Source: Polytrichum commune
Taxonomy: Eukaryota > Streptophyta > Polytrichopsida > Polytrichales > Polytrichaceae
Direction of reading: 5' to 3'
Length of the DNA: 64,000 nucleotides
Assembly (NCBI GenBank): GCA_950295325.1
Contig: OX485807.1
Location: 45,556,796 to 45,620,795 of the forward strand
A model generated the notes under the pieces. That model had not been told where the DNA came from. It saw only the letters and a program-made list of their open reading frames with translations, and ran no database searches. Both the position numbers and the translations under genes were made by a program. The number at the start of each line of letters is the position of its first letter. The stretch's first letter is position 1. This document shows positions 16,467-55,614 of the stretch, in pieces.

Positions 16467-16771
16467 TCATCACGCCATGTGGGATGTCATCAAAATTTTG
16501 ATTCAACAAGGATAATAATTTGTAACCTAGTCTAACTTGTACAATTAAAGGTAGATGGTGAACAACGCTCACATTTTAAGTAGGATGAAGATGCCTAACT
16601 AAAATGCCACACTGTTTAAAAGACCAATTTGGAAGCAAAATTTTGCATCCAATACACTTTACACGATGTGCCCATGCCCAACCCACTGATCATGAAACAT
16701 GTACAGTGATATGTAGTGAATCTTCTTTGCTTTGTGCATTAGTCAAATACACCAAACACATGGGGAAAGCC

Positions 16772-35219: not shown

Positions 35220-35702
35220 ATGTATGTTAATTTCCACCACCCATTCTTCATGGCACACATTTTATTCAATGCTGGAGTCTTTGTGATTTGCATGTTGCCC
35301 TTACCATATTTGCCAAACTGTTCAGTTTTCTTTATTTTACGTTTTATTTGCGAGATCATTGTGACGGTGCCTTCAATTCAACTTCCATCTTTGATCGCTC
35401 CAAGCTCTCTCTTATTGTGCAATGGGAAACAATTTGGGGTACTAAGGCAGGCGGTTGACCTCCTTGCCCAAACGAAGGAATCAGGGAGGAGATATCCTAA
35501 CAATCCCCACATTGAAGTAATATTGCAATATTTTAGAAAACTTGTAGGCCGTAACAAATTTAAATATGATCACACATATAGGAAATGGATTTATATAGAT
35601 TACAATATATTCACTGTAATCATGAGCTACAATTCCACAAATGAAGTGCACACTCTACATAGGAATGATTCAAAGCAACTGTCCAAGTTTGTGACAAAAT
35701 GA
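35220..35702 (+). CDS. Hypothetical 160-aa protein, conserved in unit 1 copies
   Basis: ATG follows a pyrimidine-rich leader (TCTCTACTCCGACATCTTCA). The first about 65 residues are hydrophobic (FVICMLPLPYLPNCSVFFIL), then comes a polar part (AVDLLAQTKESGRRYPNN, YRKWIYIDYN, MSYNSTNEVHTL, KQLSKFVTK). No family recognised. The same frame is seen at 15460-15942 with a nonsense codon and, for its last about 30 codons, at 12128-12215. Conserved frame supports past coding. It may be part of a captured gene, and introns are possible in the hydrophobic part. Confidence 0.35.
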   Translation: MYVNFHHPFFMAHILFNAGVFVICMLPLPYLPNCSVFFILRFICEIIVTVPSIQLPSLIAPSSLLLCNGKQFGVLRQAVDLLAQTKESGRRYPNNPHIEVILQYFRKLVGRNKFKYDHTYRKWIYIDYNIFTVIMSYNSTNEVHTLHRNDSKQLSKFVTK

Positions 35703-35839
35703 ACTATACAGGGTTCATGACCAAGCTTGGTGTGTTTCACACTATATTGGTAATGGTAAATATGGAGGGTAGATATACAATGCGAAGTTCTCATGTGTTT
35801 GTTGAAAGACTCCATGTCATTTACACCTACACTATCTAT

Positions 35840-36226
35840 TTAGAGCATCTCCGCCACCATCTCCAAAATGAGAGCATATGGGGTATTTGTGAGAACATAC
35901 ACCCCTGAGTTGTGTACAAGGAAGCCTATGCTTTGCACAATCCTCAATTCCTTGATCAATTCCTTCACGTAGGATTTCCAGTTGGATATGATGTCTTCAT
36001 CATCATTCTTCATAATTGATTTGTTTCTTGGAGTAAGGACTTGTATTTCCTTTCCTATTTTACGTAGAATTTTCTTTGTCCAAATTTTGCTTTGACATGG
36101 AGACTCACGTGCACGTTGTTCAAGAAAATTTGTCAAAAACTCAACACAATCACCAACATTGATGGAGCATGGGAGGGTGATAGCTTCTTCCTTGAGCCTT
36201 GGCACATTCCTTTGTGAACCTCCCAC
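35840..36226 (-). CDS. Hypothetical 128-aa frame, conserved between duplicates
   Basis: Minus-strand frame with INVGDCVEFLTNFLEQRA, KIGKEIQVLTPRNKS, NDDEDIISNWKSYV and a C-terminal TNTPYALILEMVAEML. The 16080-16466 copy is closely similar at the protein level with no frame break. GTTCACAAAGG at the start follows a CAG-like acceptor, so it may be a 3' exon. No family recognised. Confidence 0.35.
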   Translation of the reverse strand: MGGSQRNVPRLKEEAITLPCSINVGDCVEFLTNFLEQRARESPCQSKIWTKKILRKIGKEIQVLTPRNKSIMKNDDEDIISNWKSYVKELIKELRIVQSIGFLVHNSGVYVLTNTPYALILEMVAEML

Positions 36227-36587
36227 TCATCAAGCCATGCGGGATGTCATCAAAATTTTGATTCAACAAGGATAATAAATTGTAACCTAGTCTAACTTGT
36301 ACAATTAAAGGTAGATGGTGATCAACGCTCACATTTTAAGTAGGATGAAGATGCCTAACTAAAATGCCACACTATTTAGGAAACCAATTTGGAAGCAAAA
36401 TTTTGCATCCAGTACACTTTACACGATGTAACACTATATTCGTTAAATTGAGACTTTTTGGGCATTTTGAGACATTCACATAAATAAGAACAAGGATAAA
36501 TGGAACACATATTGGAGAAAGTTGTAAGATGCGAACACTTTGAAGCAGGTGTTTAGACCAAGAACCCCATAAATAACTCATATTTGT

Positions 36588-36830
36588 GATGGTTTAGGGT
36601 GGGCAATCCAAATCTTAGACCACATTTAAGGGGAAACCTTAAAACATTCATATTATTGCACACAAAATATTAGAGCTTGTATGAATATGGTTTAGGTAGG
36701 GCAATCCAAACCATAGATCTTATTGAAGGGTTAATATGTTAACCAATATAATATTGCATACAAAATATTCCAAACTCATATTTGTGATGGTTTAGGTAGG
36801 GCAATCCAAACCTTAGACCATATGGAAGGG
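36588..36830. repeat. Subterminal direct repeats of the giant transposon (about 100-bp spacing)
   Basis: Three copies of GGTTTAGGtaGGGCAATCCAAA, each followed by a variant of CTTAGACCATATGGAAGGGG, start near 36588, 36688 and 36788. The copy at 63298 carries two. The deletion derivative keeps one diverged copy. CACTA elements often carry subterminal transposase-binding repeats; that role here is inference. Confidence 0.65.
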
Positions 36831-36977
36831 GAAATCATGTCTAACTTGTATTATTGCAAAAAAAAACATACAAAGTGTGGCATGTAAAATGCATATCATG
36901 CTAACACCACACATGCATTGGATAGTGCGACCCAAAATGTTCTTGCCTATGGCCCAAAACCCTACGCCTACTATGGC

Positions 36978-37889
36978 CTATCTAGCCTCGGATACTACCT
37001 CTTTTTCTTTTGCTTCATTTTCTTTTGCTTTTTTTTCTTTTGCCTCTTTTTCTTTTGCCTCTTTTTCTTTTGCTGCAGCTTCTTTTGCTCGCATTGCTTC
37101 AACATTCCTGAAAATCTCCGCCCCGCGACTATAGCCATTCTTGGGGTGAACGCCATCAATAACACATTTTGTATTCCGTCGGCCGCCCGAATTATACGAC
37201 GAAGAATTCGAATACGATGAAGTGGACTGTCTTGCATTTCTGGTCATGGAGTAGAAACGCTCCAACTCGACGGACGGATCATCCCGCATAGGTTTACGGG
37301 CGGGAGCAACCTGCAACGCGTGAATGCAAGAACACACGTGTTAGTTAAGGGAGGAAGACCCAAACGTGTCACACGTTCATTTTTTAAGTGCGGGATGATT
37401 GTAATGCGTGGTTAACCATGTTTTTTTGGAGGGGGGGGGGGGGGGGTTCACCTTGTCACCGGGGGCGTTCCCGTCGGAGTTGGCGAGGAGGGGCAAGGCG
37501 TCCCGCAAAGGGATAGGAAGGGTGCCACTCTTCGTGGGCCGAGCGTCCATCCGCAGCCGCCGTTGAGGTGTAATACTGCCGCCGGGCCGAGAGGGGGACG
37601 TCCGGACGCATTTGCGATTTATGCCCTTGAGCGGCGACGGGGACGGAGATGGCCGGAAGATTTGCTTGGGTGGGGGGCTATCGACGACGCCGGCGTCGAT
37701 AGGCTCCTTGGGGTAGTCGATGGTGGACGCGGCATCGTAGACGGTCTCGTAGAAGAAGCTCCCCAAGTTTGATTCGTTGACGATCTCAATCGAGGGCTCC
37801 AAATGCTGGCGCAAAAAAGGAAACAAAACAAAACCCAAGGGGAGGGGGGGAGGGGGGAGCATGTGAAAATCGATATACAATTGAGGCAT
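36978..37889 (-). CDS. Transposon gene with Pro/Ser-rich N-part and C-terminal Lys/Glu coiled coil
   Basis: A first coding segment runs from about 37889 or, more likely, from an acceptor (TTTTTTGCGCCAG) near 37811 down to 37452. A 141-bp intron (37311-37451; donor GTGAAC, acceptor GCGTTGCAG) joins it in phase 0 (DK to VAPARKP) to the last exon, 37310-36978. The N-part is acidic then Pro/Ser-rich (PSPSPSPLKG). The last exon has SMTRNARQSTSSYS, a short motif GVHPKNGYSRG, and then a tail of repeated AKEKE units predicted to form a charged coiled coil. I do not recognise a family. The same last exon recurs at 63746-64000 with the frame preserved, which argues that it is truly coding. It is the gene nearest the left end of the element. 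The repeat number of AKEKE units differs between the copies. Confidence 0.6.
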
Positions 37890-37924
37890 AATATATCACA
37901 CACAATGGCACACCATGTAGTATC

Positions 37925-38689
37925 TCAAATGAGTTTATTATATTTCGCGTGAGCGTACAACTCTCTGTACATATAGTCCTTCGGATCCATGTATCTTTCG
38001 CCTATCGGATTACAACTAAGGAACCGGGGCACGGGTAGTCCGCTCCCCACGAGCGTTTGAATGTACTTAAGTAGGTCTAACAAAAAGCGGTCTCGGACCT
38101 TCTCGACCGTCCACGTGGGGCAAACTATGAAGTTCGAGGTCGGGTTCAAAATGTTTTTGGAAGCGCTGTCGTCCACCATCAACGTGTTGTCACGGGTGGG
38201 GCGAACGTCGTAGGGACAGCCGACCATGGTCGGACGCTGGTCCCATACGACTGGCTTCAAGACCTTAAGAAATTGGTTTACGGCGGGGTTGTTGGGCTTT
38301 TTCACAACCCTGCCCTCGGGGGTGTATAACGTTCTACAAGAGTCCTGTCCTAGGACCAAGCACGGGGGTTGGAGTCCCTTGAAGATGAACTCCACGACGG
38401 CCTGGGTGTTCTCGGACTTCATGGAGCTCCACACGATCACCCACCATTTGGATAGGGCGACCTGCAGGAAGCGCCGAAGCCACGGGCGGAGGTACACTAG
38501 CTTGCTTTTGATGTACGCGGGGGGACCATCGTAGTTGGCGTCCTCGGGCTTGCAGAAAGGCACCGTGGGGACCCTCGGACAATGCACGCACTGGACAAGG
38601 ACCCCGTTGAGGTCTAGCACCAGGAACCGGGTCTTGGGAGGCGAAGGTGGCGAGGGCAAAATCGGGGGGACCACCGCGTTGTCCTCCAC
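37925..38689 (-). CDS. FCP1/SCP-like HAD-family phosphatase domain protein
   Basis: The open frame from the GTG at 38689 gives 254 residues. It stays open upstream to about 38770 (Ser-rich, no ATG), so the true start lies in an unresolved upstream exon. FLVLDLNGVLVQ at residues 22-33 is HAD motif I, with D26 as the nucleophile position. VIVWSSMKSENTQAV matches motif II, KVLKPVVWDQRP the central region, and LMVDDSASKNILNP motif IV with a DD pair, in the order of the FCP1/SCP (NIF) family. The second motif I acid is Asn (DLN rather than DLD). Plant FCP1-like HAD proteins with DLNG are known to me, so this may be a lineage trait, but it leaves catalysis uncertain. It ends in YAHAKYNKLI and TGA. 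It lies between the ParB/methyltransferase gene and the Lys/Glu-rich gene on the same strand inside the transposon, and may be a captured host gene. Confidence 0.75.
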   Translation of the reverse strand: MEDNAVVPPILPSPPSPPKTRFLVLDLNGVLVQCVHCPRVPTVPFCKPEDANYDGPPAYIKSKLVYLRPWLRRFLQVALSKWWVIVWSSMKSENTQAVVEFIFKGLQPPCLVLGQDSCRTLYTPEGRVVKKPNNPAVNQFLKVLKPVVWDQRPTMVGCPYDVRPTRDNTLMVDDSASKNILNPTSNFIVCPTWTVEKVRDRFLLDLLKYIQTLVGSGLPVPRFLSCNPIGERYMDPKDYMYRELYAHAKYNKLI

Positions 38690-38917
38690 ACTCCTCGGAG
38701 AGGATCGGTGGGGAGCTGCGACGCTATGCTCCGAACCCTGCGGCGACGAGCGAGAGAAGGCGGACGAGGACTATGTTATGCTATGTCCATCTCAAGCAGA
38801 ACGGAAATTTTGTGCAAACACAAGAAGAATTGGACCATTGGTGGCAACAAAAACATACAAGGGGAACAACATACATTGGGACACGGATGCAAACATATGG
38901 GCGCCAAAAATAATAAT

Positions 38918-38923
38918 TTTATT
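38918..38923 (-). terminator. Candidate AATAAA polyadenylation signal for the ParB/methyltransferase gene
   Basis: On the minus strand AATAAA lies about 300 nt past the last in-frame stop of the ParB/methyltransferase frame and before the HAD phosphatase gene. Position fits a 3' end, but plant poly(A) signals are loose. Confidence 0.25.
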
Positions 38924-39186
38924 TTTACAAATCTCTATGTACAATTTGATTGGGGGGGGGGGGGACCGCGGTGAACGAGGGCATTCACACTATCCTAATT
39001 CTACATCTACAAAATTGGTTGCGCGCCGCCAAGGTCGAGCATAGTCGAGTGCAGGTGAGACGAAGGGGATCGCGGGGGGGCACGTTGGGGGGAGGGGGAG
39101 CAAGTGTAGAGCATGGGGGGCAGGGGGTGTGCATTTCCTCCTAGCAAGGGGGACACGACCACGCCAACAAGACAATGACCCAGGAA

Positions 39187-39600
39187 GTTTGGGTCGGTCG
39201 ACCCAAACTGGGGAGGGCTCAGTGTATTATCTCGCCCTGGTCATGTCTCGACGATGTGGAAGCCTCCACCGTCCCCGCTGTCCCGCCTCTCTCGCCACCG
39301 CCTTCTCCGACGACGTCAGGAACCTTCTCCTGCAAACGATCGGCATCAGGCCCTTGTCCTAAACCAATCTCCGCATTTGCATCATGCATGGGTTCATCGA
39401 TTTGGTTAGGAGTAGAGGTATCACCAGGCCCTTGCAAGCCTTCAACATCTAGCATGGCCGTGTCTAGTTGACACCCATGTTGGTCAAGGGAGGACTGCGC
39501 TGCAACGGGGTTTGGGTCGGGCGACCCAAACTGTCCTGCATCTGGAGAGGGCCCTTCGGACACTCCAGTGGATGGTGGGTTTGGGTCGGTCGACCCAAAC
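39187..39600. repeat. Three 22-bp palindromes in the 3' part of the ParB/methyltransferase frame
   Basis: Copies at 39187-39208, 39510-39531 and 39579-39600. Half-site GTTTGGGTCG faces its inverted complement across two variable bases. The last two are read as FGSPDPNP and FGSTDPNP in the extension frame. Confidence 0.9.
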
Positions 39601-39758
39601 ATCCTGGGGTCGTCCGATTGGTGAGGGGGCGCCATGACTATCGGGGGCCGAAGTGGTGGAGGGCCCAAAGGGGAGGAGGCTCCAGAGACGCGCCAGATGT
39701 TGGGGTCATCCACTTGCTGGACCGGCGCGTACGGAACTTGGTGGGGCCGCATCAAGTG
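39219..39758 (-). CDS. In-frame open extension after TAG of the ParB/methyltransferase gene (Pro-rich)
   Basis: After the TAG at 39761-39759 the same frame stays open for 179 codons to a stop at 39219. The product is rich in Pro, Gly, Asp and Gln. It includes two copies of the 22-bp palindrome read as FGSTDPNP and FGSPDPNP, and it ends in an acidic and Gly-rich tail (VVGEGGGERGG). It may be a read-through or formerly coding C-terminus, or GC-rich 3' UTR that is open by chance. The palindrome contributes no stops in any frame, which makes chance openness easier. Confidence 0.35.
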   Translation of the reverse strand, partial: HLMRPHQVPYAPVQQVDDPNIWRVSGASSPLGPPPLRPPIVMAPPHQSDDPRMFGSTDPNPPSTGVSEGPSPDAGQFGSPDPNPVAAQSSLDQHGCQLDTAMLDVEGLQGPGDTSTPNQIDEPMHDANAEIGLGQGPDADRLQEKVPDVVGEGGGERGGTAGTVEASTSSRHDQGEIIH

Positions 39759-42700
39759 CTAGAAGCTGAAAGACGATTGCGGCACAGGCTGCTGAGGGAT
39801 GCTCTGCGGAGGGAAGCCGGGGGGCAAGTGCGGGAAGGAGCTGGAGGGAGCCACCACCAAACCTTGCGCCCACATTCCTTGTATCACTTGTGATATCAAT
39901 TCGGCGTGGGACGGAGGTTGGGCCATCGCCCTCTGTCGTTCCTGCTCCAACAGGAGAGCCCTTAGCTCTGCTACCTCGTTCCGCATTGAGGGTTCTTCCG
40001 CGGCAGCCTTCTGCAGGCGGACTCGCTGCTCCTCGTCCCTCCTCATCTTCTCGTTCGCCTCCTCCACAGTCAGGACCTCGGGCTTCACCCTAACCATGCC
40101 AGCGAACGCTGTCGGGGACGGGGGATCTGATCTTAGCCGTTTGGCGAGCTCAATGTCATCGTCGTCCTCGCTGCTTATGGCAATGGTCTCCTCCACGGAG
40201 TAGTCGCCATACAGCTTCTTCCCCTTCATCTTCCTCCTCTCCCTGAACGTGGCAGTCGCGTCCCTGGAGTACATGTCCCGTGCATCGTCCACCGTTAGGA
40301 CGGGCACGAGCTTACTCTGCGGGGTTGCCGCCCGCATCGCCTTCTTCCGTTGAGGGGCTTCGGATTCTTGCGTGAAGCCCGTTGCCCCTTCCTCCACGTC
40401 GCCTTCCTTCTCCGCCTCCTCGTGCTCCTCTTCTTCCTCCTCCTCCTCGACATCGCCACCTTCTGTGCGGGACGGATTGCCCGGATGCAACCCGACAAGA
40501 GGTTCGGGTTCTTGGGTTGTGGCCCTCATGGCCATTTCTTCCGGGTTGATCCGCCTCACCCTATCAAGAGGGTTTTCGCCCCCCTGAACAACCTCGTCGA
40601 CGTAGCTACCCGGGATCCAATCGAGGATGTCCATCTTCTTCGCCAACGATCTCTGCGTCCTGTAAAATGGCAGATCGCCATCCTCTATGTAGGAGTATAT
40701 ACTCAGCCCCGACATCTACACAATCCAAGTTATATAGACATTAGAATTAGGCGAGGGACATAAACAAGACCAAGTACAATGTGTAGTTTGGGTCGATCGA
40801 CCCAAACCAACAAAGAGCCTAGTTTGGGTCGATCGACCAAACCAACAAAGAGACTAGTTTGGGTCGATCGACCCAAACCAACAAAGAGCCTAGTTTGGGT
40901 CGATCGACCCAAACCAACACAGAGCCTAGTTTGGGTCGATCGACCCAAACTGCGCACGAGTTATAGAAAGTCGCTTACCATGGCAGCATAGATAGGTTTA
41001 GAGCCTCCGAAGACGTTGAAGATGCAATCCCCTCTCCTCGTCAGCGTCCTCATCATTCTCACGTAAAATTCCATCCGCAGCTCATCTAAAGGATAGTTCG
41101 CGTATTTAGCCTCGTCGTAGAGGCACTTGTTGACACCCAACCCTTCTGGAACTTGGAAGAGTTTGTCCATCCGGGATATAGGGTGGTTCGGCACCTTCAG
41201 CAACTCCGCTTTGTACACGAAGTACAAACACAAGACGTTGACGAACTTGGTCTTCTTGTCCCTCAACGTCGTGTAAGCTCCCTCCGCCGGTGCGGCGATG
41301 TAGTGAGACTTGGAGACTGCATACTCCGGCTGCAGTTTCCGGACAAGCTCGTACACCTGCTCCGCCCTCCTATCCTCGACTATCCAAAGCCAGATATCTA
41401 CCTCCCTGAACTTAGGGCTTGCATAATCGACGAACTTAGATAGGAAGGGGTCATAGAAGAGGGTGCTCATCGTGCCCTCAAATGAGCTTCCAGGAATATT
41501 CCTGAAATCAATCATCCCAAAAGGAAAGCGGTCCCTTGCTTTCGTCCTTATCGCCATTCTGGCGTCTTGACCTGGCCAGCCCTGAATTTTCAACGGGTCG
41601 GCGGTGACAAGGTTGAAGTACGCTTCCCCTTCAAACTGGACAATCTTCTTCTCCTTGATGAAGTTCGAGAACGCACGCGTTGTGTGATCCGGAAGCGCCC
41701 GGTTCTTCCCACCCTTCACCATCTTGGCCCGCAAGAAGTCGTCCCCCGCTTCCCTTATTAGAGCCGCCATGGAGGCACTGGTGAACTTATATTCAGCTTT
41801 GAATGCTCTCCAGTTAGCCTCATGGACCTCGCCGTCCACGACAATATTCCTCTCTGGCACTAGTTTATGCAGCTCCTGCACGATAGTCGTCTTCTTTTTC
41901 CTGTTCTCCGTCCATTCCTTCATGGTGTAGCATGAAGGAACGAAGGATTTGGGCTTTTGGAAGACAATCTTCGGGTGCACCCAACACCTCTTCGCCGTGG
42001 GTGCCACGTGCAGGATGTGAGATGCCGCCTTCTCCACCTCCGTCTCTGACAGCCCTTGAAGAGTTCTAAAGAACTCTCTCACGAGAGGCTTCATCTGCTT
42101 GAAGCGCGAGGTTTGGCTGAAGAAAATGCCAGTGTCGGGGTCGATCAAATCCCCCGTCTCGTGCTTTTCAAACACGGTTTTCCACTTCCTCCAAACTGAG
42201 TCAGATGCTGTAATCAAGTAAATCTCCCCCTTGAGGTCGCTGTATTTCTTTTGCTTGTGGCTCGAATTATCAATGGAGGAGAATTTGTTGATCATTTGGT
42301 ATTTGAAATCCTGCACGTCCACAAAACAGAACATTTGAATGCGTGTTAGATATGTACATGTGATTTCCAACCCATATCATGACCAACATCTACAACAAGA
42401 GTTTGGGTCGATCGACCCAAACTAAATAAACTAGCTGCATCAGGAGTTTGGGTCGGTCGACCCAAACTAAATAAACAAGGCTGCATCAGGAGTTTGGGTC
42501 GGTCGACCTAAACAATACTCACCTCCCATTTGGGATTCTTGTCCTTCGCATTCTCCCTCTCCTTGGGAGGCCTACCATAGAACTCCCACACCTCCCGCGA
42601 GGCCATGATATTCCTTATCCAGGAAGCTTGGTAGGCCCTCTTCTTATTTCCCATATTGAAGTACCGGGAGATGTCGCTGAGCTTGGTCTCGTCGTCAGAC

Positions 42701-43350
42701 CACACCACCAGTGCCTTCCAAACCTTCAGCTTTTCCTTCTGATTGTTCGGATCATCCCACTCATTCATGAGTTGGATTTTCTTGGATGCCTCCACGCTGT
42801 GTTGGCCGTCTATGAGCCAAAAATCGCCCTTTTGAATTGTGGGCCACATTTCAGGTGTAGGCATTTTCTTGAGACCCTGTGGCATCACTACTATCGTTTG
42901 CCTGTCGTCTTTAAACTGCTCGCAAACGATCTGCGCGATTATCCAGTCAACGTAGGCGTCCTCCTTTGCCCGGACACACTTCTCCGGTGGCGCTAGATGG
43001 CACTGGCTGATGTTCACGTCGAACTTAAAATCCCTGCCCATGAAAAAACAGTGGGAGCATTTCGTCGTGAAATTGTTCACGATTTTCTGCAGCTCCCCTG
43101 CATCCACCTCTTCGCCGGGCTTCGGCATGCGCAACTCCGGTGAGACTGGCTCGTCAGTCATCACAGATGACTCTCTCCCCCTCTTGGATGGAGTTGTTTG
43201 ACGGCTCCCAGAAGGTGTAGGCGTCTCGCTATCCGCAGGTGTTTGGGAGGGAGTGGTCCTCCGCGAGTCAGCCGGTACTGGTCGCGGCTTCCTCACCGAT
43301 TGAGGTCTTGACGACCCTGCTCCTTCCTCTGTGGTTGCTTTCCGCCTCAC
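39759..43350 (-). CDS. ParB-like domain fused to a degenerate N4/N6-type DNA methyltransferase (spliced)
   Basis: Exons on the minus strand are 43350-42523, 42310-40979 and 40715-39759. The introns are 42311-42522 (GTGAGT donor, GTGCAG acceptor) and 40716-40978 (GTAAGC donor, TTGTGTAG acceptor), both phase 0. A basic Ser/Thr/Pro-rich leader of about 70 residues precedes a ParB/sulfiredoxin-type domain: YVDWIIAQIV, QTIVVMPQG and LIDGQHSVEASK (DGQHS at residues 181-185 counted from 43350; the usual motif is DGxHR). The second half ends in RRGDCIFNVFGGSKPIYAAM followed by MSGLSIYSYIEDGDLPFYR. This matches the C-terminal AdoMet-binding motif I of beta-class N4/N6 DNA methyltransferases (GD-VLDPFxGSGTT-AA--GR-YIGIE). 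The catalytic DPPY motif is not obvious (MIDFRNIP lies at about the right place), so it may be a binding-only derivative. The C-terminal about 200 residues are acidic, with KR-rich and Gln/Pro-rich tracts. ParB-methyltransferase fusions are known from phages and bacterial mobile DNA. Codon 43350 is GTG, so the true start is further upstream. Confidence 0.7.
40786..40950. repeat. Five tandem palindromes inside an intron (36-bp period)
   Basis: Copies start at 40786, 40822, 40857, 40893 and 40929, separated by CCAACAAAGAGCCTA-type linkers. All have the fully symmetric AT centre (GGGTCGATCGACCC). One lacks a single C. All lie within the intron 40716-40978. Confidence 0.92.
42401..42513. repeat. 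Three palindromes inside an intron (about 45-bp period)
   Basis: Copies at 42401-42422, 42446-42467 and 42492-42513, with TAAATAAAC and GCTGCATCAGGA linkers. All lie in the 212-bp intron 42311-42522. The last copy touches the splice donor region. Confidence 0.92.
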
Positions 43351-43356
43351 GGGTTG

Positions 43357-43848
43357 CTAAGACTTGGTTTTGCTCTGCAGGGCTTTGTTGAGCACGCTGA
43401 TTGCATGCTTTAGTTTCGTGAATCTGCTCGACACCTTTGTGTTCGATGTACTGTTATCGATGAATATGGACTCCGGTTTGATGACGTCTGGTTCTACACA
43501 TGTTTCTTTTGCATAGATAGCGTCAAAGGGTTCGGAGAACTGGTGCATAAACATATGCGCGTTCTGGACAGCGTTGTTCTCGAGGATGACATCCACGTAG
43601 TCTCCAAGAGACTGAACCGATGCCACCTCCCACCCCGTAAGAGTAGCCCATGTGTGCTTCTCCACGGTCCCAACCTTCACAACAAAAATCATTTTGTATT
43701 GCGAACCCTTAACCACTTGTATAGACCACGCGAGGACAAGCCCGTCCTTAGGGGAATAGGTGTCATCCTGCGGGGTTTCGTGCTCCTGCCACAACATGTC
43801 CGGCGCAGGCATGAACCACCTTTCGCCGGGTCTTTTCTTTGGAGCCAT
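43357..43848 (-). CDS. N-terminal exon in the same frame as the ParB-like gene (163 codons, ends in TAG)
   Basis: The ATG at 43848 (MAPKKRPGERWF) directly follows a strong acceptor (TTTTCTTACAG at 43849 and above), so an upstream non-coding exon is likely. The 163-residue product has a mixed beta-rich pattern (LVLAWSIQVVKG, KMIFVVKVG) and no family I recognise. It stops at TAG (43359-43357), but the next codons (CAA CCC GTG AGG) stay in the same frame and run straight into the ParB-like reading frame. It is therefore either the first part of one long protein interrupted by a nonsense codon or leaky stop, or a separate small gene. Continuity of frame and strand favours the single-protein view. 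Confidence 0.55.
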   Translation of the reverse strand: MAPKKRPGERWFMPAPDMLWQEHETPQDDTYSPKDGLVLAWSIQVVKGSQYKMIFVVKVGTVEKHTWATLTGWEVASVQSLGDYVDVILENNAVQNAHMFMHQFSEPFDAIYAKETCVEPDVIKPESIFIDNSTSNTKVSSRFTKLKHAISVLNKALQSKTKS

Positions 43849-43874
43849 CTGTAAGAAAATAATGTGCAATGTTA

Positions 43875-44259
43875 GTTTCGGTCGTTCGACCCAAACATCT
43901 ACGACATGAATAGGTTTAGGTGGATTGTATATTTATATATTTCAGCATCATTTGTATTGATAATAAGAATGTTTTGATTATTGGGTGGATTTGCATTTTA
44001 TATTGTTTGTGACATGCAGGATTACTTGATACTTTTCCTTGATACATTCCTTGATTATTATTTTTTAGTGGATGTGAATTTTATATTGATGCAAAAATCA
44101 TGGATTTCTTTATGAGTTTATAATTAGAAGACGTTGTTTGGGTCGTTCGGCCCAAACATGATGCTTTGTTTTGTGTTTGGGTCGGTCGACCCAAACAAGA
44201 GGCTGTGTTTGGGTCGACCGACCCAAACCTGTGGCCGTGTTTGGGTCGTCTCCCCAAAC
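43875..44259. repeat. Palindromes upstream of the ParB-like gene
   Basis: Copies at 43875-43896 (one arm mismatched), 44136-44157, 44175-44196, 44207-44228 and 44239-44259 (degenerate). They lie just upstream of the acceptor at 43849, hence probably in the first intron or leader of the minus-strand gene. Confidence 0.85.
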
Positions 44260-44502
44260 TTTCCTATTTTAATGTAATTTTTAAAAGTTGGCACGTAGCA
44301 TATACAATGCTTATGCGTTGTGTATGCTACAATACCTTCAATTGACAAACACTTATTGCATATAATAAAAGAAAATACCTTTGTTGTATGTAGCAGTTGT
44401 TGTAAACTGTTGCTTTAGAACAGGTGTTCTTCTTCCAATAACACAGAAACAGTTGAATGTAACCTCTCACACAAATCCACAATCTCTCATACAACTCCTA
44501 GA

Positions 44503-44930
44503 TCTCTTTTGAATCTCTCAAACAACAATTCAATACTTCAAACAACCTCTGAATCTCTAAGAACAAGTGAATCTCTCAAAACAATAACTGACTCTCTCAA
44601 ATGACTTAGATATCTCTCAAACAACAATTGAGTGTTTCAAACAACCTCTGAATCCCTAAGAACAAGTGAATCTCTCAAAACAATGACTGACTCTCTCAAA
44701 TGACTTTTGTATCTCTCAAACAACAATTGAGTGTTTCAAACAACCTCTGAATCCCTAAGAACAAGTGAATCTCTCAAAACAATGACTGACTCTCTCAAAT
44801 GACTTTTGTATCTCTCAAACAACAATTGAGTGTTTCAAACAACCTCTGAATCCCTAAGAACAAGTGAATCTCTCAAAACAATGACTGACTCTCTCAAATG
44901 ACTTTTGTATCTCTCAAACACCTCCTGATT
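44503..44930. repeat. 99-bp tandem repeat, about four copies
   Basis: The unit contains CTAAGAACAAGTGAATCTC at 44557, 44656, 44755 and 44854 and phrases such as CTCTCAAACAACAATTGAG. The last three copies are almost identical and the first is diverged. It lies between the two divergent transcription units of the transposon. Confidence 0.9.
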
Positions 44931-45299
44931 ATCTTATAGAACTCCTAAATCTCACAAACTCTCCAACTACAATACAGCCTCCAAAACCCGCAAGCTTAGA
45001 ATGTTGGAAAACCCTTCAACAATCTTCTACTTACTTCACTCTACAACAATCACTCTACTAACTCTCACGCACTCTAAAACTCTCTCCTTAGGTTTCTGTT
45101 CTATTGCAAACACTTCCTAACTTCTACAGCAAGAGAAGGGAGGGAAGGAGAAGAATCAGTAGGCGCCAAAGCAACAAGAAGGGAGGGAAGAGAAGAAAAT
45201 CGCCACCCTGAATCGCCACGGCGCTTCGCGAAAGCGGCGCTTCGCGAAAGCGGCGCTTCAGGAGAGGCGGCGCTTCCACAAGAGGCGCGGAGCGAATGC

Positions 45300-45470
45300 T
45301 TGGCGCGGAGAGAGAGAGAAAGAGCGAAAAGTTGTGACGGCTGGGGTTTTGTATGCCTCGGGAATTGGCCCCCAACCGCACGAATAGGGTGCCAACGGGA
45401 TTAGGGCACCAACGGAATTAGGATTACGGGGAACCCTAAATCCTAAAGCCAAACTGTAAACCCTTAGCGG
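45300..45470 (-). promoter_or_regulatory. Candidate promoter and CT-rich leader of the minus-strand genes
   Basis: Read on the minus strand there are AACCCTAAATCC-like boxes, then GCATACAAAACC, then a CT-rich run (45308-45325) and a CpG-rich segment with tandem TTCGCGAAGCGCCGC units (45226-45262). This resembles a plant core promoter followed by a 5' leader. No coding start is evident before 43848. Position between divergent genes supports the reading; no direct proof. Confidence 0.3.
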
Positions 45471-45506
45471 GCATTAGTATTTTCAAGACACTTTGGAGTA
45501 CCCTAA

Positions 45507-46037
45507 TGGGGCATTCCCACTTGACTTTAGTTAAGACCCTCACTATTTTATAAAGACCGGGTAAAGCTCCCTCGGTTATAGCGGAGGCATCCAACTATCC
45601 CAATGCACCTACAAGAACTTGCTCCGGAGATTTTCAAGTAGGTTTTAGTTAAGTAGCTTTCACACATGTTCATGGTTTTATCTACCAAGCAATGAATGTT
45701 GGGTAGTTTTTGTCCCATCCCCAAATGCCTTACTACTCACCTATCTTACCATCGGTTTTTGTTAATGAAGCTCCTCGTGCCCTCATAGCTAAGACTAAAA
45801 AGCAACCAATCACAAGGGTGGGAGGCGACACTTTTAAAATTCCTATATTCTTGCCTAATGTTTAGGTACCGATGGGAGCGTCGGTGGTTGAGGCTTAAAA
45901 CCTCCACTTTTAAGCCATGCCACATCATTTGCCACCTAGGCTCGGCACTAAAAAGAGCCATATGTGTGAAACCTAGATAACTAAAACCGCATTTAGACTA
46001 ATACTACTTCTAACTAATGTCAAGTGGGAATGCCCCA
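45507..46037. mobile_element. 531-bp Harbinger-like MITE nested in the giant transposon
   Basis: Ends TGGGGCATTCCCACTTGAC and its inverted complement (TTAGTTA follows with a small offset). TAA flanks both sides (45504-45506 and 46038-46040). A 3-bp TAA TSD with G-rich ends is typical of PIF/Harbinger MITEs. Confidence 0.7.
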
Positions 46038-46484
46038 TAAGGTGCACATCAAATGCGGTATTCTACAAAATGAAACCATTTATACAACTAATGCATTTTT
46101 ACAACGCAACGTTATCCTAAAACTAAGACTTAACCCCTACTCACATGACACCATAACCTAAATTTCCCAAACAAGTTGAAATCATTGGTTTCTCTTTTGT
46201 TTGAGCAAGTTAGAAAAATAATACAATTGCGTGACATTTAACGATGTAATCGTTGACATTTAGACTTTACCAATGATGCCAAGAACTCACACAATATGCA
46301 ATGAATAAAAAATATAACCCCCGTCCCCCAACATGAAATTCGGAAATTTAGGATATTTGAATGTGTTTGCTAAATGTATACCTTCCCCAAGAGCATTTTC
46401 TCAGGGTTTGGAATTGCATGATCCTTATGTCGAAATGCTAACATGCTCAAGTTTTTAGTAAATCCCTTACATACTCACTTGAAT

Positions 46485-47314
46485 GAATCACATAGTCGCC
46501 AATAAACCATGGATCGTGATATATGTACTTCGAATGTGATATAAAAGTAAATCGGAGAACCACAACATCAAATGAAGCCCTTTGACGCAATCATGTTGTT
46601 ATTGAATGTTCCCTCCACGTATATTACATAATGGCGCAAGATAAAGTTCATGTTGTTTGTATGTGGAGGTAGCAGTGAACAACTACGAATTTTTGTATTT
46701 AGGGTTTAGGGTTTAGGGTTTAGGAGTTAGGTTTATAACATATTAATCTATCCAATATTAACATATAACATTGACTTACTGGTGAGAATAGGTTTTTACT
46801 GGAAGGTAATAGAAAAGACGATCTTGATTATGTTTATTTGTTATTACGGACGTTTAAACGTGATATAGTGAATGGTCTTGTGTTTATTCAAATAACATGA
46901 AATGTTGTGGATGTTATTAGGGGTAAGGGGTTCAACTTTGGATGTTTTGCTCACTTTAAGGAATCACATAGTCGCCAATAAACCATGGTTCATGATGTAT
47001 TTAATATATGGAATGTGATGCAAAAGTAAATAAGAGAAGCACAACATCAAATGAAGCCATTCACGCAATCATGTTCTTATTCATTGTTCCCTCCACATGT
47101 ATTGGATAATGGAGAAAGATATAACAGATATTGTTTGCATAATATGAAGAAGAGTCTAATAGGAAGGTTATAGTAAATACAATCTTGATCATGTTAATAT
47201 GTTATTTGGGACGTTTAAACATGATATACTAATTGGTTTTGTATTTTGTCAATACGTATTTCATGTTGTGGATGTTATAAGGGTTTAGGGTCCAACTTTG
47301 GATGTTTTGGTCAC
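46485..47314. repeat. Diverged direct duplication inside the transposon
   Basis: 46485-46954 and 46963-47314 share GAATCACATAGTCGCCAATA, CACAACATCAAATGAAGCC, GACGTTTAAAC and CAACTTTGGATGTTTTG in order. No coding frame is conserved between them. Confidence 0.8.
46698..46724 (+). repeat. Interstitial plant telomere-type repeats
   Basis: Almost four TTTAGGG units. A second short tract is at 47472-47490. Both lie inside the giant transposon. Confidence 0.9.
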
Positions 47315-47900
47315 ACACATTAGTAAACTTGAAGTGAACTTGAGGATGGATTGAAATAACATTAAAAGATTGAACCAAAAAGCGACATTGCTAGTTAGTA
47401 TCCCCTTAACAACGTCCACATACGTTTATCATTGCCACACTTCCATGCGAGATAACAGAGCCGCAATGTTCTAGGGTTTAGGGTTTAGGGGAGACAAATA
47501 AATAATTTTATTCATCATGACAATGGCCTCAAGCCTTGGAAACTCTCTCATAATTGCAACCTCCAAATGGCCCCAACCCCACCTAAATAGGTTTGCACTT
47601 GAAAGCATTGAATGGAGTTGTGGTTGGGTATACATATTGGTTAAAATATACCGTTGTGACACTTGAAAAAATTAATGTGGCCGCCACCCTTCCTTCCAAT
47701 GTCGTATGTCATATACACACAAAACCAAAAAAAGATTAAATATCATAGACTAAGACATATGACGGCTGGGGTATGAGAGGGGCATTGAAAGATGCGCATT
47801 TTCTACAATAAACAGAAAACGGGGAATTTTGTCAGGAGGTTTGAAATAACAAGGCGGGAAAGGCATCCAATGAGGAAGTCGGGCAAGTGGAGGTGGATAG

Positions 47901-47907
47901 TATAAAG
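47901..47907 (+). promoter_or_regulatory. Candidate TATA box for the transposase-like gene
   Basis: TATAAAG lies upstream of the transposase start and is followed about 30 bp later by a pyrimidine-rich tract, the usual plant arrangement of TATA box, start site and CT-rich leader. If used, the leader would contain a 5' untranslated intron ending at the acceptor at 49472, and that intron would hold the 48.2-49.3 kb palindrome array. No donor is obvious. RNA data are needed. Confidence 0.45.
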
Positions 47908-48175
47908 GGGCGCACCCCCCAAAAGTTGGTTCTTTTTTGCTCTTCTCCCACTCCTGAATTCGTAGAGAGAACTCTTAGTCGGAGCTGTACTTCGAGGTTC
48001 GTTCACGCTGTTGTTCATGAGGACCTATTCACAGCATGCAAGTCCGCAGTGAACTTTGCAATGAGATGAAATTCCACACACCTCTCAATATCCGCTGCAT
48101 TATACGCCGCATTATACGCTGTATTATACGTCGGTCGACACTAGTGTTGGCGGGTTTCAGTCTGACCCTTGTGAG

Positions 48176-49276
48176 GTTTGGGTCGGTCGACCCAAACCCC
48201 TCCACTAGTGTGGGCGGGTTCTAGTCTGACCATTCTGAGGTTTGGGTCGATCGACCCAAACCCCTCCACTAGTGTGGGCGGGTTCTAGTCTCACCCTTGT
48301 GAAGTTTGGGTCGGTCGACCCAAACCCCTTCACTAGTGTTGGGGGGGGGGTCTAGCCTGACCCTTGTGAGGTTTGGGTCGATCGACCCAAACCCCTTCAC
48401 TAGTGTTGGGGGGGGGGTCTAGTCTGACCCTTGTGAGGTTTGGGTCGGTCGACCCAAACCCCTTCACTAGTGTTTGGGGGGGGGGGGGGTCTAGTCTGAC
48501 CCTTGTGAGGTTTGGGTCGGTCGACCCAAACCCCTTCACTAGTGTTGGGGGGGGGGGTCTAGTCTGACCCTTCTGAGATTTGGGTCGGTCGACCCAAACC
48601 CCTACCCCACTATGGGCGTTTATCGTAAAACCTTTCAGAAGGTTTGGGTCGGTCGACCCAAACTTTTTCGCACATCGTGAACGAATTGTTAATGGCCCTT
48701 ACCCAAGGTACTCAGAAGGTTTGGACGGACAAAGTAGGAACCTTATCCCATCATATGTAATGTTTGGGTCGAGCGACCCAAACCTCATCCCAGTGTGGGT
48801 GGATTTACACTGTGAAAGTTTGGGTCGACCGACCCAAACCCTTTCCCAGTGTGGGTGGACTTACCCTGTGAAAGTTTGGGTCGACCGACCCAAACCCCTT
48901 CCGAGTGTGGTGGGTTTACCCTGTGAAAGTTTGGGTCGGTCGACCCAAACCCCTTCCCAGTGTGGATGGATTTAGCCTGTGAAAGTTTGGGTCGACCGAC
49001 CCAAACCCCTATCCAGTGTGGGTGGATTAACCCCGTCAAAGATTGGGTCGGTCGACCCAACCCCTTCCCCAGTTTCGGAGGTTGTAGTTGACCATGACAA
49101 GGATTGGGTCGGTCGACCCAAAATTTTCCCCACAGCGTGATGGAATTCTAAATGGCCCTCAACCCATCATTGTACAAGGTTTGAGTCGGTCGACCGGAAC
49201 CCGACCCTATCCCACGGGCAAGGTGTGGATGGCCCTCAATCCATGGTGCCACAGGGTTTAGGTCGGCCGACCCAAA
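48176..49276. repeat. Minisatellite array of about 20 palindromes upstream of the transposase gene
   Basis: Copies start at 48176, 48240, 48304, 48371, 48438, 48510, 48578, 48642, 48762, 48818, 48874, 48929 and 48985, then decay (49040, 49100, 49178, 49255). The first block has a 64-72 bp period with TCTAGTCTGACCCTTGTGAG linkers and poly-G runs. The second has a 55-56 bp period with AGTGTGGGTGGATTTACC-type linkers. Centres are GT, AT, AC or AG. It lies between the candidate TATA box and the coding start of the transposase gene. Confidence 0.92.
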
Positions 49277-49477
49277 CTCCCACCCAAAATATTTTGTGGA
49301 ACATTTTGCGGACTGGCGCATAGTATTGGGAGCTCACATTGCATTTGTGTTGCAAATGTCTTGATCCTCAGTGTCCCCATTTATCGTGATGTTTTGCATT
49401 TTCCAATATTTGATTTTTTTGGACCCTTACGTTGTGTCCATGTTTGTTGAGGTTTCATGTGCATTTGTGTAGGCGCA

Positions 49478-52400
49478 ATGGAGGGAGTTGGTGGAAGAGG
49501 GGATTCCTTCTCTGAAGACATGGGCAGCACCCAATCTCTGTCTGGGGATGAGCTAGACATTGTCGGGGAGGATAGTTTTGATGACAGTGCAGATGAAGGT
49601 CATTTGGGGAGTCCTTCGCCATCTGACCCTTTTTGCCCCATTGTGGAATGTGCGGGGCTTTCACGAGCTTCATGGGTGAATTTGGATGTGGTACTTGTTA
49701 ATGACAGTGGAGTTGCTGTGGCGGAGGGTATTTGTCGTAACACACATCCACAAGATTGCATTGATGAACACTCCCTTGGCACCGAGGACGTTGGAGTTGT
49801 TATATTAGAATCACTTGTACATTCGGAAGTCAATCCAACTCATAGGTTCTCGTTGCGAAGGTGGCCGTTGAGGAATGTGACAATTGAGGGGGTTAGCTTG
49901 CGCGACCATGAGCGACGACACGTCCAAATCCAACAGGAGCTCCAAGCAAACATTCGGCCACGCAAAGGCCTTCGGAAGTACGAAACATTGACACGTCCTA
50001 CTCTGTCTGCAAATAAGTGTAAACGTCAAAGGTTGCTCTGTGAGGAGTCTATTAGAGAAGTTGCTACGAAGGATTGTTGTGTACATCGTTGTTGCCAATT
50101 GTTCCCAAGAGATAAATTGAAGGCCATCCGTGAAGAAATGTGGCTTGGAGATTTCCGTCTAAGATCCACCAAAAAACTTGATGTCCATAGGGCGATACAT
50201 GTGAACGGAGCGGGTCGCAAGGTCATCACCCTTGAGAGCATAGACGTGTGTTGTACGGTATGGTACACCATTCACGGTGTGTCGAAAGCGGAATTTTATA
50301 GACAAGCCGCGTATGCCAATGAAGGCCGCCGTGCCCGTCACCATGGGAACACGGGCTTAAAGAAACCAAGAGAAGCAACGAGACAAGCAACAGCCACTCT
50401 GGCAACCATCATTGTCCCCCTTGCCGATGCAATGCCGCACAAAACACGGACACTCGCAACCGGTGAAAAGGTTGTGGAGAAGGTTCTTCCTACAGGCACG
50501 AAATGGAAAGACATATTGTTGGACGTAAACGCAGTTGGCGAGAAGGCCGGGTTGGACCCTATTTCGTTGTCGAAACTGAGTGCTATAAAAAAATCTCACT
50601 TTAGCGAATACATCACAAAAAGACGAGGCGACAAATTTGCCCGTTGTTCCAAATGTGAGAAGTTGAAACGCCTTCGAGATGCACACACGATGGGGACAGA
50701 GTCCTATGCCGCACATCAAATGAACTATTTCAAGCATGTGAACATGCAAGAGGCACACCGTAATGATTACTACACAAATAGAGCTTTGTCCATCTCCAGG
50801 CCTTTGGAAGTCCTTACAATCATCCATGACAAAATGGACCATGCCAAAACAGCCTCACCATGTTTTGCAAATCGAATAAAAGCCACGGACGGCCTTTTTA
50901 AGCTTCCTGTTTCGGTTACAGGTGATTTTGATAACAATTGCATTGCATTACCTAAACACAAATTTGTGCGTTTAGGTTTGTACTTGGGGCCATACATGTA
51001 CACCATGTGAATTTTTTGGTGTTATAGTTGAATATTAAACCATTGGGTTGCCTTTGCAGGAATGATTGCACATGGGCATGGAGATGTCAAGTATGCTCAT
51101 TATGCTCTTGATTTGTATCCGGGGGATTCAAACCACACGATAGGGTCATTTGCAAAGCTTTTACGTGATTTGGAGAAACCGCCGTCCTATTCATCAAGAT
51201 TGCTATTTGAAAACTCGGGATCAACACCTCTATATGAAACGGTCTTGGATGGAAGAGATGTATGCGTGCACTCATTGCCGGAGCCACCAAGTGAAGATGT
51301 GATTGCCAAGAATTTGCCCCCAACTCTGCGTGTCCAATCGGACAATTGTGCGAAGGACAATAAAAGCAGATATGTATTTGCATATTGGTTGTTGTTGGTT
51401 GCGAAAGGCATTTTCAAGGAGGTTTTTGTGTCCTTTCTATTGGTAGGCCACACGCACGATGATATTGATGCGTCCTTTGGGCGGTGGAGCATGAAGTTGC
51501 GCGAGGAGGATTTTCCAACAATCCCATTGTTGATGAAGTCGTACATGGATTTGGAGAACATTCCCGTCATCCCACATATGATTGAGGAGGTTCCAGACTT
51601 CAAGGCATTTATAGAACCGTATATTCGAAGCGGAGCTCACCGATTGATCGGGCATACGAAGGCACAACAATTTCGGTTCTACGTGCGTGACGATGGTGTC
51701 CCCGCCATGCAATACAAGTTGTTGTGCACATCACAAGACTGGAGCCCGCCGGAGGGTCTCCTTGTATGGCGTGTTGATGGGGAAGGAAGGACGATGTTGC
51801 CTGACGGAGAGCCTAAGCCTTGCAAACCAATACCCATGAAGAATTTGGAGGACATTTGTAAAGGCATATCAGGCTTCATACAATATTGGGAGAGTTTGAG
51901 GGTAGCGGATGTTGGTGGATCGTGTTGGCTTCGTTACGGAAGTTGGATACAATATTGGACACGTGTTCGTGGCGCTTTGGCAAACCTTCATCAAGATACA
52001 CCCCTTACTTTAAGGCATGGGTTTTGGCCACAAACACGTGTCAATGTACAAGCTTCGGAGGCTAGTCTTTTGGGAAATGGAGAGGTTCGAGAGGAGTTTG
52101 ATGTGGACGACCATTACGTGGGGCCTGCTAGTAGTCGTCCGCCACCATCTTTCCGCATTGCAGTGGATTGTCATGAAGGTTATATGCTCATTTTGCGTCC
52201 TGGAGATGAGACATATGCAAAGCCAGTGTGGGTGGCAAGAGCTTTGTCCAAACCAAATTTTGTAACTTCCAGCCCTCATTTTCGACAAATACAAGTAGAG
52301 TACTACCGACCGACATCACGGAATGAAGATGTTGTTCGGCATTATACAGGCTGGGATACAAACCCTAACTTTCGGTGGAAGGTGGATTCTGAGCATGGTC

Positions 52401-52546
52401 CATCTTGGATAGATACAGATTCCATATTCATAGCATGGAAACCACGGAAAAATCATAGTGGATCGGTGTCCATCCCTCAAAAGTACATAACTTTTGCAAA
52501 AGACAACCTTGCTCGGATCGCAGAAGAAGCAACCCACGTTAAATGA
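49478..52546 (+). CDS. Two-exon RNase H-fold transposase-like protein (DUF7869-type), 976 aa
   Basis: Exon 1 is 49478-50921 and exon 2 is 51060-52546. The 138-bp intron begins GTGATT and ends TTTGCAG, and splicing restores a continuous frame (VSVTG then MIAHGHG). The start is the first ATG after a likely acceptor (TTTGTGTAG) at 49472. The N-terminal part is acidic and then basic, followed by Cys-rich stretches (VCCTVWYTIHGVS; CSKCEKLK). The putative acidic catalytic triad is D in IHDKMDHAK, D in VQSDNCAKDNK and the acidic residues of GHTHDDIDASFGRWS. From general knowledge, these motifs mark the eukaryotic family I know as DUF7869, a predicted RNase H-like domain linked to DNA transposons. 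The last about 150 residues (PVWVARALS, EYYRPTS) look like a small SH3/BAH-like barrel. I infer that this is the transposase of the surrounding element. All catalytic motifs are intact and there are no frameshifts, so it may be active. Confidence 0.85.
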
Positions 52547-55079
52547 GAAGTTGGTAGGATTGTGTTAGCATGATTATAGTGTAATATGTAATTCGACGAA
52601 TATAAATTACACATATGTGTGCTCCTCAAACTTGGGCCAAGTTTGGGTAGAACTTGCGAATGCTATATTGTTTGGGGTTGGATGAATATCCATTTACTAT
52701 ATTTCAATACAAATGTGAAGTTCATTTTTTTATTAAGTTTGGGACTAAATTGTCCATTGAAGAAAAATGCATTTATTGCATGCACTTTGTATGTTGCAAT
52801 GTCTATATTTTATTGACCATGCTAATAATATAAACCATTTTATATGTTTATTGGATGAAACTAGTTTAGAGTGCTCTACCCAAAGTGTTTTTGTTGATGA
52901 AGTTGGTGTTGAGTGCTCTACCATATGTGCTTATGTCCACACATAATAGATTTGGGATATTAGAACATATAATATATTTGAGATTGTTCGCAATATAGTT
53001 TCGGAACACGGAATGTTGTTTGATCCATATATTAATTTGAGACTAGAGAAAGTCTCAATTTAACGAATATAGTGTTATGTGAACATGCCCAACCCACTGA
53101 TCATGAAACATGTGCAGTGATATGTAGTGAATCTTCTTTGCTTTGTGCATTAGTCAAATACACTAAACGCTTGGGGAAAGCCTCACTTACGGGAAGAACT
53201 TGCTACACAAGTTTGGTGTCCCTCCTCCACCATGACAGGCACAACTTCAGGGCGTCCACCGACTTGTTCAACCACTTCCACTTCCTCTTCCATGATTGCT
53301 TGGAACACCTCCATTTGTTCAATATCCCATGCATAGCCAAGTTCCATGACTTCACAAAGCTCAAGAAGTTCTCCATGGTTGGTCTTGATCGAGTAATAAA
53401 CTGAACAAGCATGACAATATCATGAGGAGATAACTTTGGGTGAAACATATGGAAGATGAGTACGTTTCAATTCATGCACTTTGCCCGGCGGAATCGAATC
53501 TATTTCCATGCCACATCCACTTTATCACGGCTTTCGAGCAACCATTGTGTGACAAGTGTGAAATGTGGCTTTGCCACTTCAGAAAATTTATCTTGCACCG
53601 AAATTGATAAGGTTTTGGCTTACCAAATCAATATTCAAGGAATTGACAGCTTGCATGCCTTGAATACCCTCTCTAATTTACGAACGCAAGAAGTTATGAA
53701 GAATACAGAACAAACTCACACTCAGCATGCACACATGTGAGTGGAAGATTTAGGCACTGATAAATGTTACACTGGAATTTTGAGGTAAGAATACATGAAT
53801 TTTCAACCCAATCACCAAGCTCAATAAGTCTTTTCAACTGGCACATCCCTGCAATCATTTTACATCCCTCAAACACTGTACTAATTATCCCAATTAGTGA
53901 GGGTGGGCTAATTAATGTGTGTGGGATATTAGTGACGGTGGTACTAAACTTTTTAAGCTTTGAAATTATTGCCACCAGAAGATTTAGGTGGCATTGTTGG
54001 TAACGATATTATTCACAATATTCATATTATTCATACCGACGTGAGTTTCTTCTTGTAAAGGTAAGATGGTGGACGCATGTGTCAAATGCTAAATATAGAA
54101 ATAGAACTCAACCACAAGGTTGAGTAATGTCATGCTCACAAGCATGTGTAAATTGCATGCATTATTTTTTGGTCACTCTACAAACACCATAGGGCACAAA
54201 GTATTTTTTTTCTGAATTGTATGGTAAATGAGCTTGTATTCATGTATTTAGTATCACTCAATAAAGAAATTGGGCCTCACTAATTTTCAGAGTTGACAAA
54301 TTAGTGCATGTTTCGAGAATTGGTGATAGCTAAACTAGTTGGGATAATCTCTGGAGTAGGAAACATGGTTCTTGAATGCACATCCATTTTGAAAGGGGGG
54401 GGGTCATTAGAACATAATATGAATACGTTACAATGTTGAGCAGAAGCTGGGGGATGATAGAGATTATAATTAGTGAAGCCGTAGTCCGTCTGAACATTTT
54501 ATTATATTAAAGACTATTCCAACTTCTAAGCCAACAAAACAGAGGATCCTGAATCTTGAGTGTCCCCTCTGTTCTTGGACACTGTTTGTAAGTTCATTAC
54601 CTGAAGAGAAGGCAAACGACGACAAGAAATCGCTCGCTCTCTTGATTGATGATTCTACAACCAAATGGCGTGCGACCTACTTTTGACCACGCAGCTGGGA
54701 CAACACCACACAACAAAAAAAGAAATGAACAATGATGATAGGTCGAGAGGAGTGCACCTAGATCCGGTATTCTGCAAATCCTGCTACAGACAAGGCCGAC
54801 GAATTTGTTCGGTGGTAGCTGCTGGACTCAAACTAACCAGTTAACTTACAACCACCTAATCCAGAGCAAATGCTCAATGCCCACAAGAATGTTAGAATTG
54901 GTACAGTGAATAAGAATATAGTTTTACGATGCGCGAGGCACCGGAATGGGAAGGAAATATGTGGGAGCTCAGGTGAACCCCTGCTAGCACCGCTCCTTCT
55001 AAACCATGAACCCATTCGCCACCTTTCAAGAATCCTTGTAAGTTACATTTACTGACCGATTCATCATGGGTATACTCTG

Positions 55080-55349
55080 TTCAATTACGGAAGAGACTAT
55101 GACGGATACAGGAAAGCATCGATCACTTTCTATCTCTACCGCGACACTCCTGAGATGAATCATGTGCGTCTAGTGAGGGGATCCGCTTCGTTGGGGGGGA
55201 GCCAGCACTTGAGAGTGTCCGGAAGAAATAAAAATTTGAAGAACCTCTGTTTTCGATTTCCTTCCAGTCAAGCACACTGCCTTGATTGGGAAGCATCGTC
55301 ATTATGTAGCACAAAGAAAATCCGCAAACAATCGCCTGCATCCTCGTGA
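55080..55349 (+). pseudogene. Hypothetical TPExN domain, copy 3 (unit 2)
   Basis: Counterpart of 18650-18929: FNYGRDYDGYRKASITFYLY, DTPEMNHVRLVRGSASL, GRNKNLKNLCFRFPSSQ, DWEASSLCST. Upstream frame interrupted by TGA near 55052. Confidence 0.33.
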
Positions 55350-55614
55350 TATTCTATTTCTGCACAACTATGTGATGCAAAAACGTGAATGTTCGAAGCC
55401 AAGAGAAGAGAGGATCCTCGAATTTGAGAGTTCGCTCAAACACTCCTTGCCAGACACTAGTTGTAAGTTCATTGGTTGAAGACGACACTGAAATTGGATA
55501 CAAGAAACCGCTCGCTCTCTCATTTGATTATTCTTCACCCTGGTCAACGTAATTCCTAACACACTGCTGAAAGAAAACACCAAAAACGAAATACCGCACC
55601 ACATCAAGACAACA

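Follow-up and report, generated by a model that had tools for sequence, protein, structure and literature searches.

What kind of mobile element carries a gene that joins ParB-like and DNA-methyltransferase-like parts, and what does that gene act upon? The question is raised by an element of 16,647 bp at positions 36430-53076 of a 64,000-nucleotide stretch of Polytrichum commune DNA (contig OX485807.1; the whole stretch is hereafter called the window). An original prediction, made from the sequence alone, described it as a CACTA-ended transposon with a 4-bp target duplication, an empty site and a gene set matching no nameable class. We consider it probable, at roughly 0.6, that this is a giant cut-and-paste DNA transposon carrying its own sequence-recognition system, in which the ParB-methyltransferase (ParB-MT) would read parS-like palindromes distributed through the element. 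The kind itself is already known: for the giant Sola-1, the available parts of the published account describe a ParB plus methyltransferase gene opposite the transposase and suggest self-modification (PMC12477816). As far as the literature searched shows, the palindrome arrays, the family-specific code, the corresponding positions and the phosphatase partner are new; that literature yielded no description of such arrays in transposons with a ParB-methyltransferase.

Element ends and target site duplication

The boundaries of the element and its empty counterpart are as follows.

36430..36457, plus strand: perfect 28-bp terminal inverted repeat at the left, starting AACACTATATTCGTTAAATTGAGACTTT
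53049..53076, minus strand: perfect 28-bp terminal inverted repeat at the right, inverse of the left end; adjoined by a short subterminal hairpin, TTGAGACT...AGTCTCAA
36426..36429, unstranded: target duplication ATGT, left copy, directly before the left end
53077..53080, unstranded: target duplication ATGT, right copy, directly after the right end
16666..16669, unstranded: the one ATGT in the paralogous empty site, where the paralog fuses both flanks

The paralogous block at 14.0-19.2 kb, 95% identical, has one ATGT at the junction of the two flanks, which bears out the predicted empty site. The end motif CACTATATTCG occurs 2,605 times (1,282 + 1,323) in the 407.8-Mb, 64-contig assembly, and its reversed control 118 times (47 + 71). 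Flanks were tabulated for 25 end pairs, comprising two from the window and 23 neighbouring plus/minus pairs drawn from 100 listed places of the end motif, all on contig C1; the window belongs to contig C5, and all further copies fetched are from C1. An exact 4-bp duplication lies just outside AA/AT-CACTA in 18 of the 25 pairs, four match at three of four bases (the short copy in the window, l21542, m13401 and p14111) and three are mismatched (c5765, h1174 and m11611). The wrong right end was probably paired for h1174, since more palindromes occur past its right end. When the left flank of one element is set against the right flank of another, only 7 of 600 pairings agree, and agreement over 5 bp was seen in none of the 25 pairs; the empty site and the 4-bp duplication therefore exceed chance, and the predicted duplication length is confirmed. 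Short copies from C1 (n = 7, 246-257 bp) show five exact 4-bp duplications, one match at three of four bases and one mismatch.

The description "CACTA-ended" holds in part: the ends contain CACTA but begin AACACTA. CACTA/EnSpm elements have ends starting with CACTA and a 2-3-bp duplication, neither of which was found here.

Gene content and conservation among copies

The main genes lie on opposite strands.

49478..50975, plus strand: transposase exon 1, 499 complete codons from ATG to an inferred GT donor, with homologs
51060..52546, plus strand: transposase exon 2, DUF7869 (PF25273, E 1.2e-40)
42523..43848, minus strand: ParB-MT exon 1, N-terminal domain, linker and ParB-like domain with DGQHS
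40979..42310, minus strand: ParB-MT exon 2, helical part resembling a helix-turn-helix (HTH) and DNA-methyltransferase-like domain
39219..40715, minus strand: ParB-MT exon 3, acidic C-terminal region
37925..38737, minus strand: main exon of a NIF-type HAD phosphatase (PF03031, E 1.6e-13), nucleophile motif DLNGV

Joined across one inferred GT-AG intron, the transposase is 994 aa long with no internal stop. DUF7869 was the sole listing in a Pfam scan of both exons at E<=1, and no paper naming this domain appeared in the literature searched. Among 7,999 candidates scored, 87 transposase homologs passed, and the closest named relatives are from the mosses Ceratodon and Physcomitrium. The predicted model of one homolog, P0003 (mean pLDDT 80.1), matches the cores of Mos1 and retroviral integrases, and an RNase H-type catalytic fold, as in DDE/D cut-and-paste transposases, is predicted.

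The ParB-MT gene of the window comprises about 1,200 codons up to the stop of exon 3, and 89 relatives were found. Its product is predicted to have a ParB-like and a DNA-methyltransferase-like fold: the model of P0124, an uninterrupted relative (mean pLDDT 78.2), combines a ParB-like domain with a helical part of HTH type and a domain resembling DNA methyltransferases. The ParB N-domain and HTH-type region found in this fold model were not found by sequence profiles alone; PDB searches with single sequences or profiles gave no meaningful match, and PHROGs gave a weak ParB-like match (E 0.095). Scans of viral contigs (three with proteins, one with the palindrome) revealed no relative, and neither did a single protein scan of contigs from prokaryote genomes. 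The window copy has in-frame stops in exons 1 and 3, with a stop at the same place in 2/9 and 1/9 copies, respectively. An alternative code reading these two TAG codons as an amino acid was considered and rejected; they are absent from most other copies and so resemble damage to the window copy.

Full-length copies without these genes, or a lack of other 16-kb copies, had been named in the original prediction as grounds for doubt. Neither was found: the ten elements of at least 16 kb examined (the window element, a610, b2112, c5765, d7843, e10973, f14644, o21306, p14111 and q16319) all carry the DUF7869 transposase, the ParB-MT gene and the NIF-type phosphatase, in a constant order, with the transposase on the strand opposite to phosphatase and ParB-MT. 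Three are larger (o21306, p14111 and q16319; 22.7-38.3 kb), their extra DNA presumably representing nested insertions; insertions lie inside the phosphatase in p14111 and inside the transposase in o21306. The gene set is thus a conserved cargo, although the statement that it matches no nameable class was too strong, given the ParB plus methyltransferase gene reported in available parts of the account of Ectocarpus Sola-1 (PMC12477816).

Across the compared protein parts, e10973 is 98.8-99.6% identical to the window element, and movement was therefore recent. Most long copies contain some stop within a matched stretch, so many copies are decaying. Values of dN/dS were below 0.5 in the listed comparisons with the window, where computable, with medians of 0.08-0.20, and on these sequence comparisons the cargo gene set is under purifying selection. 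The CpG observed/expected ratio ranges from 0.81 to 0.98 across the element genes and is 0.57 for the palindrome arrays; the two ends of the element have 0.24 and 0.60, and two host stretches 0.49-0.60. Recent arrival and low cytosine methylation would each be compatible with the gene values.

Shorter end pairs (3.6-10.8 kb) gave no ParB-MT match (0/7, with the probably mis-paired h1174 among them). Transposase matches, some partial, were present in five of the seven (g, h, j, l and n) and phosphatase matches, some partial, in four (g, j, k and l). As a separate observation, a shorter element type of 7.6-10.8 kb (L031, L029, L021-L022) has transposase and phosphatase matches, while a ParB-MT was not found and palindromes are few or absent. 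Synonymous divergence between f14644 (L019-L020) and the window element is 0.06 for transposase exon 2, 0.71 for the phosphatase and 1.5 for the methyltransferase, as if modules had been exchanged between element lineages.

Palindrome arrays

The window element contains 24 perfect sites of the palindrome TTTGGGTCG-NN-CGACCCAAA, and none occurs elsewhere in the window. The family-specific array, the element's most unusual feature, went unmentioned in the original prediction. Elements with this palindrome (family 1, n = 9) hold 22-38 perfect sites each, 253 in total; genome-wide there are 9,731 perfect sites and none of the reversed control. A motif-free search for palindromes with 8-bp arms uncovered a second palindrome, TTTACGAACG-NN-CGTTCGTAAA, in c5765, i639, j14016, k16407 and l21542 (family 2), with 3,737 perfect 20-bp cores genome-wide and again none of the reversed control. 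The same search found no array in g15651 or n11508. The two palindromes share one architecture, with arms of about 10 bp ending in CG and a 2-bp spacer, and their positions correspond: in both families sites lie between the transposase and ParB-MT starts, between the ParB and methyltransferase exons, and between the methyltransferase and the phosphatase. The arrays of the window element are the following.

48139..49300, unstranded: array of palindromes upstream of the transposase, with tandem periods of about 64-72 and 56 bp
43876..44230, unstranded: palindromes upstream of the ParB-MT start
42402..42515, unstranded: three palindromes inside the first ParB-MT intron, one of them carrying a mismatch
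40787..40952, unstranded: five palindromes inside the second ParB-MT intron, one of them carrying two mismatches
39188..39602, unstranded: three palindromes in the interval from ParB-MT core to phosphatase, of which two fall within the exon 3 tail

These positions bear on the idea that the palindromes are transposase binding sites serving transposition, like the subterminal repeats of other large DNA transposons. Such sites would be consistent with palindromes in elements that have a transposase and no ParB-MT found (j14016 and l21542), and with transposases that also differ between the families (60-66%). However, none of the nine family-1 elements has a perfect site within 2.6 kb of an end, the sites are located at gene starts and introns, and the short copies (n = 8, 246-257 bp), five of which have exact 4-bp duplications, contain no perfect family-1 site, the only kind counted in them. 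We regard this explanation as unlikely.

Palindromes upstream of both divergent genes, with tandem arrays before the transposase, could also be promoter elements read by a host factor and amplified for raising expression, leaving the ParB-MT another job. One genome should then have one motif, yet two families use different ones; moreover, the motif-free scan of two host stretches in the window (25 kb and 10 kb) gave 11 and 5 hits, with listed motifs occurring at most twice. This possibility, too, seems to us a poor prospect. The tandem periods in several arrays might also suggest a large transposon of ordinary kind that captured passenger genes, its palindromes being functionless minisatellites spread by replication slippage. 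That view is difficult to reconcile with cargo under purifying selection, with corresponding positions in two families despite different sequence, and with an architecture common to the families although the sequence changed, and we consider it very improbable.

Covariation of palindrome and protein

Database open frames of ParB-MT relatives read into unspliced introns, making palindromes visible as translated tails. Relatives were typed by their nearest reference at 45% identity or more, and 88 of the 89 had a match. Palindrome 1 is visible in 29 of 64 window-type relatives and palindrome 2 in 9 of 12 c5765-type relatives, while FTDxRP appears in 3 of 7 P0124-type relatives; its back-translation can give TTTACGGACG-NN-CGTCCGTAAA, a trace of a third palindrome among database relatives. 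The remaining five typed relatives have no palindrome trace. By these patterns, none of the 88 typed relatives carries another type's palindrome. It should be noted that the tail patterns were written after inspecting the tails and so provide a description and not a blind test, that 47 of the 88 show no trace, many because the frame stops at the exon, and that variant tails in some near-window relatives (e.g., FGPxGPN in P0115) lie outside the counts. As judged from these sequences, the palindrome differs between element families together with the ParB-MT protein.

Proposed mechanism

On our preferred reading, a self-recognition system carried by the transposon, the palindromes in the promoters and introns of an element would serve as parS-like sites for the ParB-like protein which that element encodes; binding would be through the N-domain and helix-turn-helix region, parts also present in bacterial ParB and Noc. 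Once bound, the protein might methylate the sites (4mC or 6mA) or block host cytosine methylation there; the fused methyltransferase-like domain, active or not, would mark or shield the element. As a result, the family would itself stay expressed while other families and the host were left alone. Judging by its family, we would guess that the NIF-type phosphatase acts at the same genes on the transcription apparatus; copies with palindromes and no ParB-MT (i639 and k16407) could be served in trans. We place at roughly even odds the further proposal that a ParB-parS-like system became a heritable self-recognition code, in which each family's ParB-MT reads its own palindrome, protein and palindrome change jointly at fixed positions, and mutually blind families share one genome.

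Two observations weigh against the self-recognition reading. The methyltransferase part lacks the DPPY-type motif, the catalytic motif of DNA N6A/N4C methyltransferases, and has instead an IDFRNIPG-type stretch and FGGSK. In addition, palindromes are present in end pairs without the ParB-MT.

Comparison with known systems

With bacterial ParB-parS and Noc the element shares palindromic multi-copy DNA sites and, in the predicted model, a ParB N-domain with an HTH-like region. It differs in being a eukaryotic transposon with a fused methyltransferase-like domain and another site sequence; bacterial ParB has a GERR box, and DGQHS occupies its place here. Ends containing CACTA and an RNase H-type transposase are shared with CACTA/EnSpm (CMC) elements, whereas the 4-bp duplications and the AACACTA ends are not; in Pfam the transposase matches only DUF7869. 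Chapaev, of the same clade, has a 4-bp duplication.

VANDAL elements are Mutator-like. The available parts of the accounts of VANC from Arabidopsis VANDAL transposons describe an element-encoded anti-silencing protein whose non-coding targets are tandem repeats varying between related elements, with sequence-specific self-activation (PMC5735166, PMC10398659). The analogy with our system would lie in an element-encoded protein and in tandem-repeat non-coding targets that vary among related elements; here the candidates are instead a ParB-methyltransferase as reader and palindromes of 20-22 bp as targets.

Closest in gene content is Sola1-1_Ec32 of Ectocarpus, which in the parts of its account available is a 21.5-kb giant Sola-1 DNA transposon with a ParB-like plus DNA-methyltransferase gene (1104 aa) opposite the transposase strand, such proteins being suggested to bind and epigenetically modify their own transposon (PMC12477816). 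Those parts describe neither a phosphatase partner nor palindrome arrays for Sola1-1_Ec32 (PMC12477816); its host is a brown alga and ours is plant-like, and the comparison covers gene content and strand arrangement. A 4-bp target duplication is described for Sola2 in the portion of the source available (PMC3627910), the length seen exactly in 18 of our 25 end pairs.

Prior notes on algal transposon ParB-methyltransferases, in their available parts, proposed self-binding without describing a target. Candidate targets now exist: thousands of sites, two codes in one genome and a third traced in database relatives. This opens the escape of transposons from silencing to direct tests by DNA-binding assays and methylome reads, and the protein/site pairs could serve to work out the recognition rule.

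Other features of the window

The element also has a third minus-strand gene.

36978..37807, minus strand: two inferred exons, about 37807-37452 and 37311-36978

It has a Lys/Glu-rich tail, and matches are present in other copies. The mid-element part without long open frames contains 99-bp tandem repeats and another duplication (44495-44990, 46474-47314). Host DNA flanking the element (14002-23000, 33722-36429 and 53077-63297) is a patchwork of several duplicated and diverged blocks in both direct and inverted orientation. A 257-bp derivative at 25827-26083 has AT-CACTA ends and flanks TTTA/TTTT. At the window's left edge (within 1-218) a right end at 206-218 is followed by ATGT, the element running off the window. 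Likewise, the left end of another copy at 63298 (63298-64000) runs off the other edge; this copy sits inside a third, inverted paralog, with an empty counterpart near 17085-17089.
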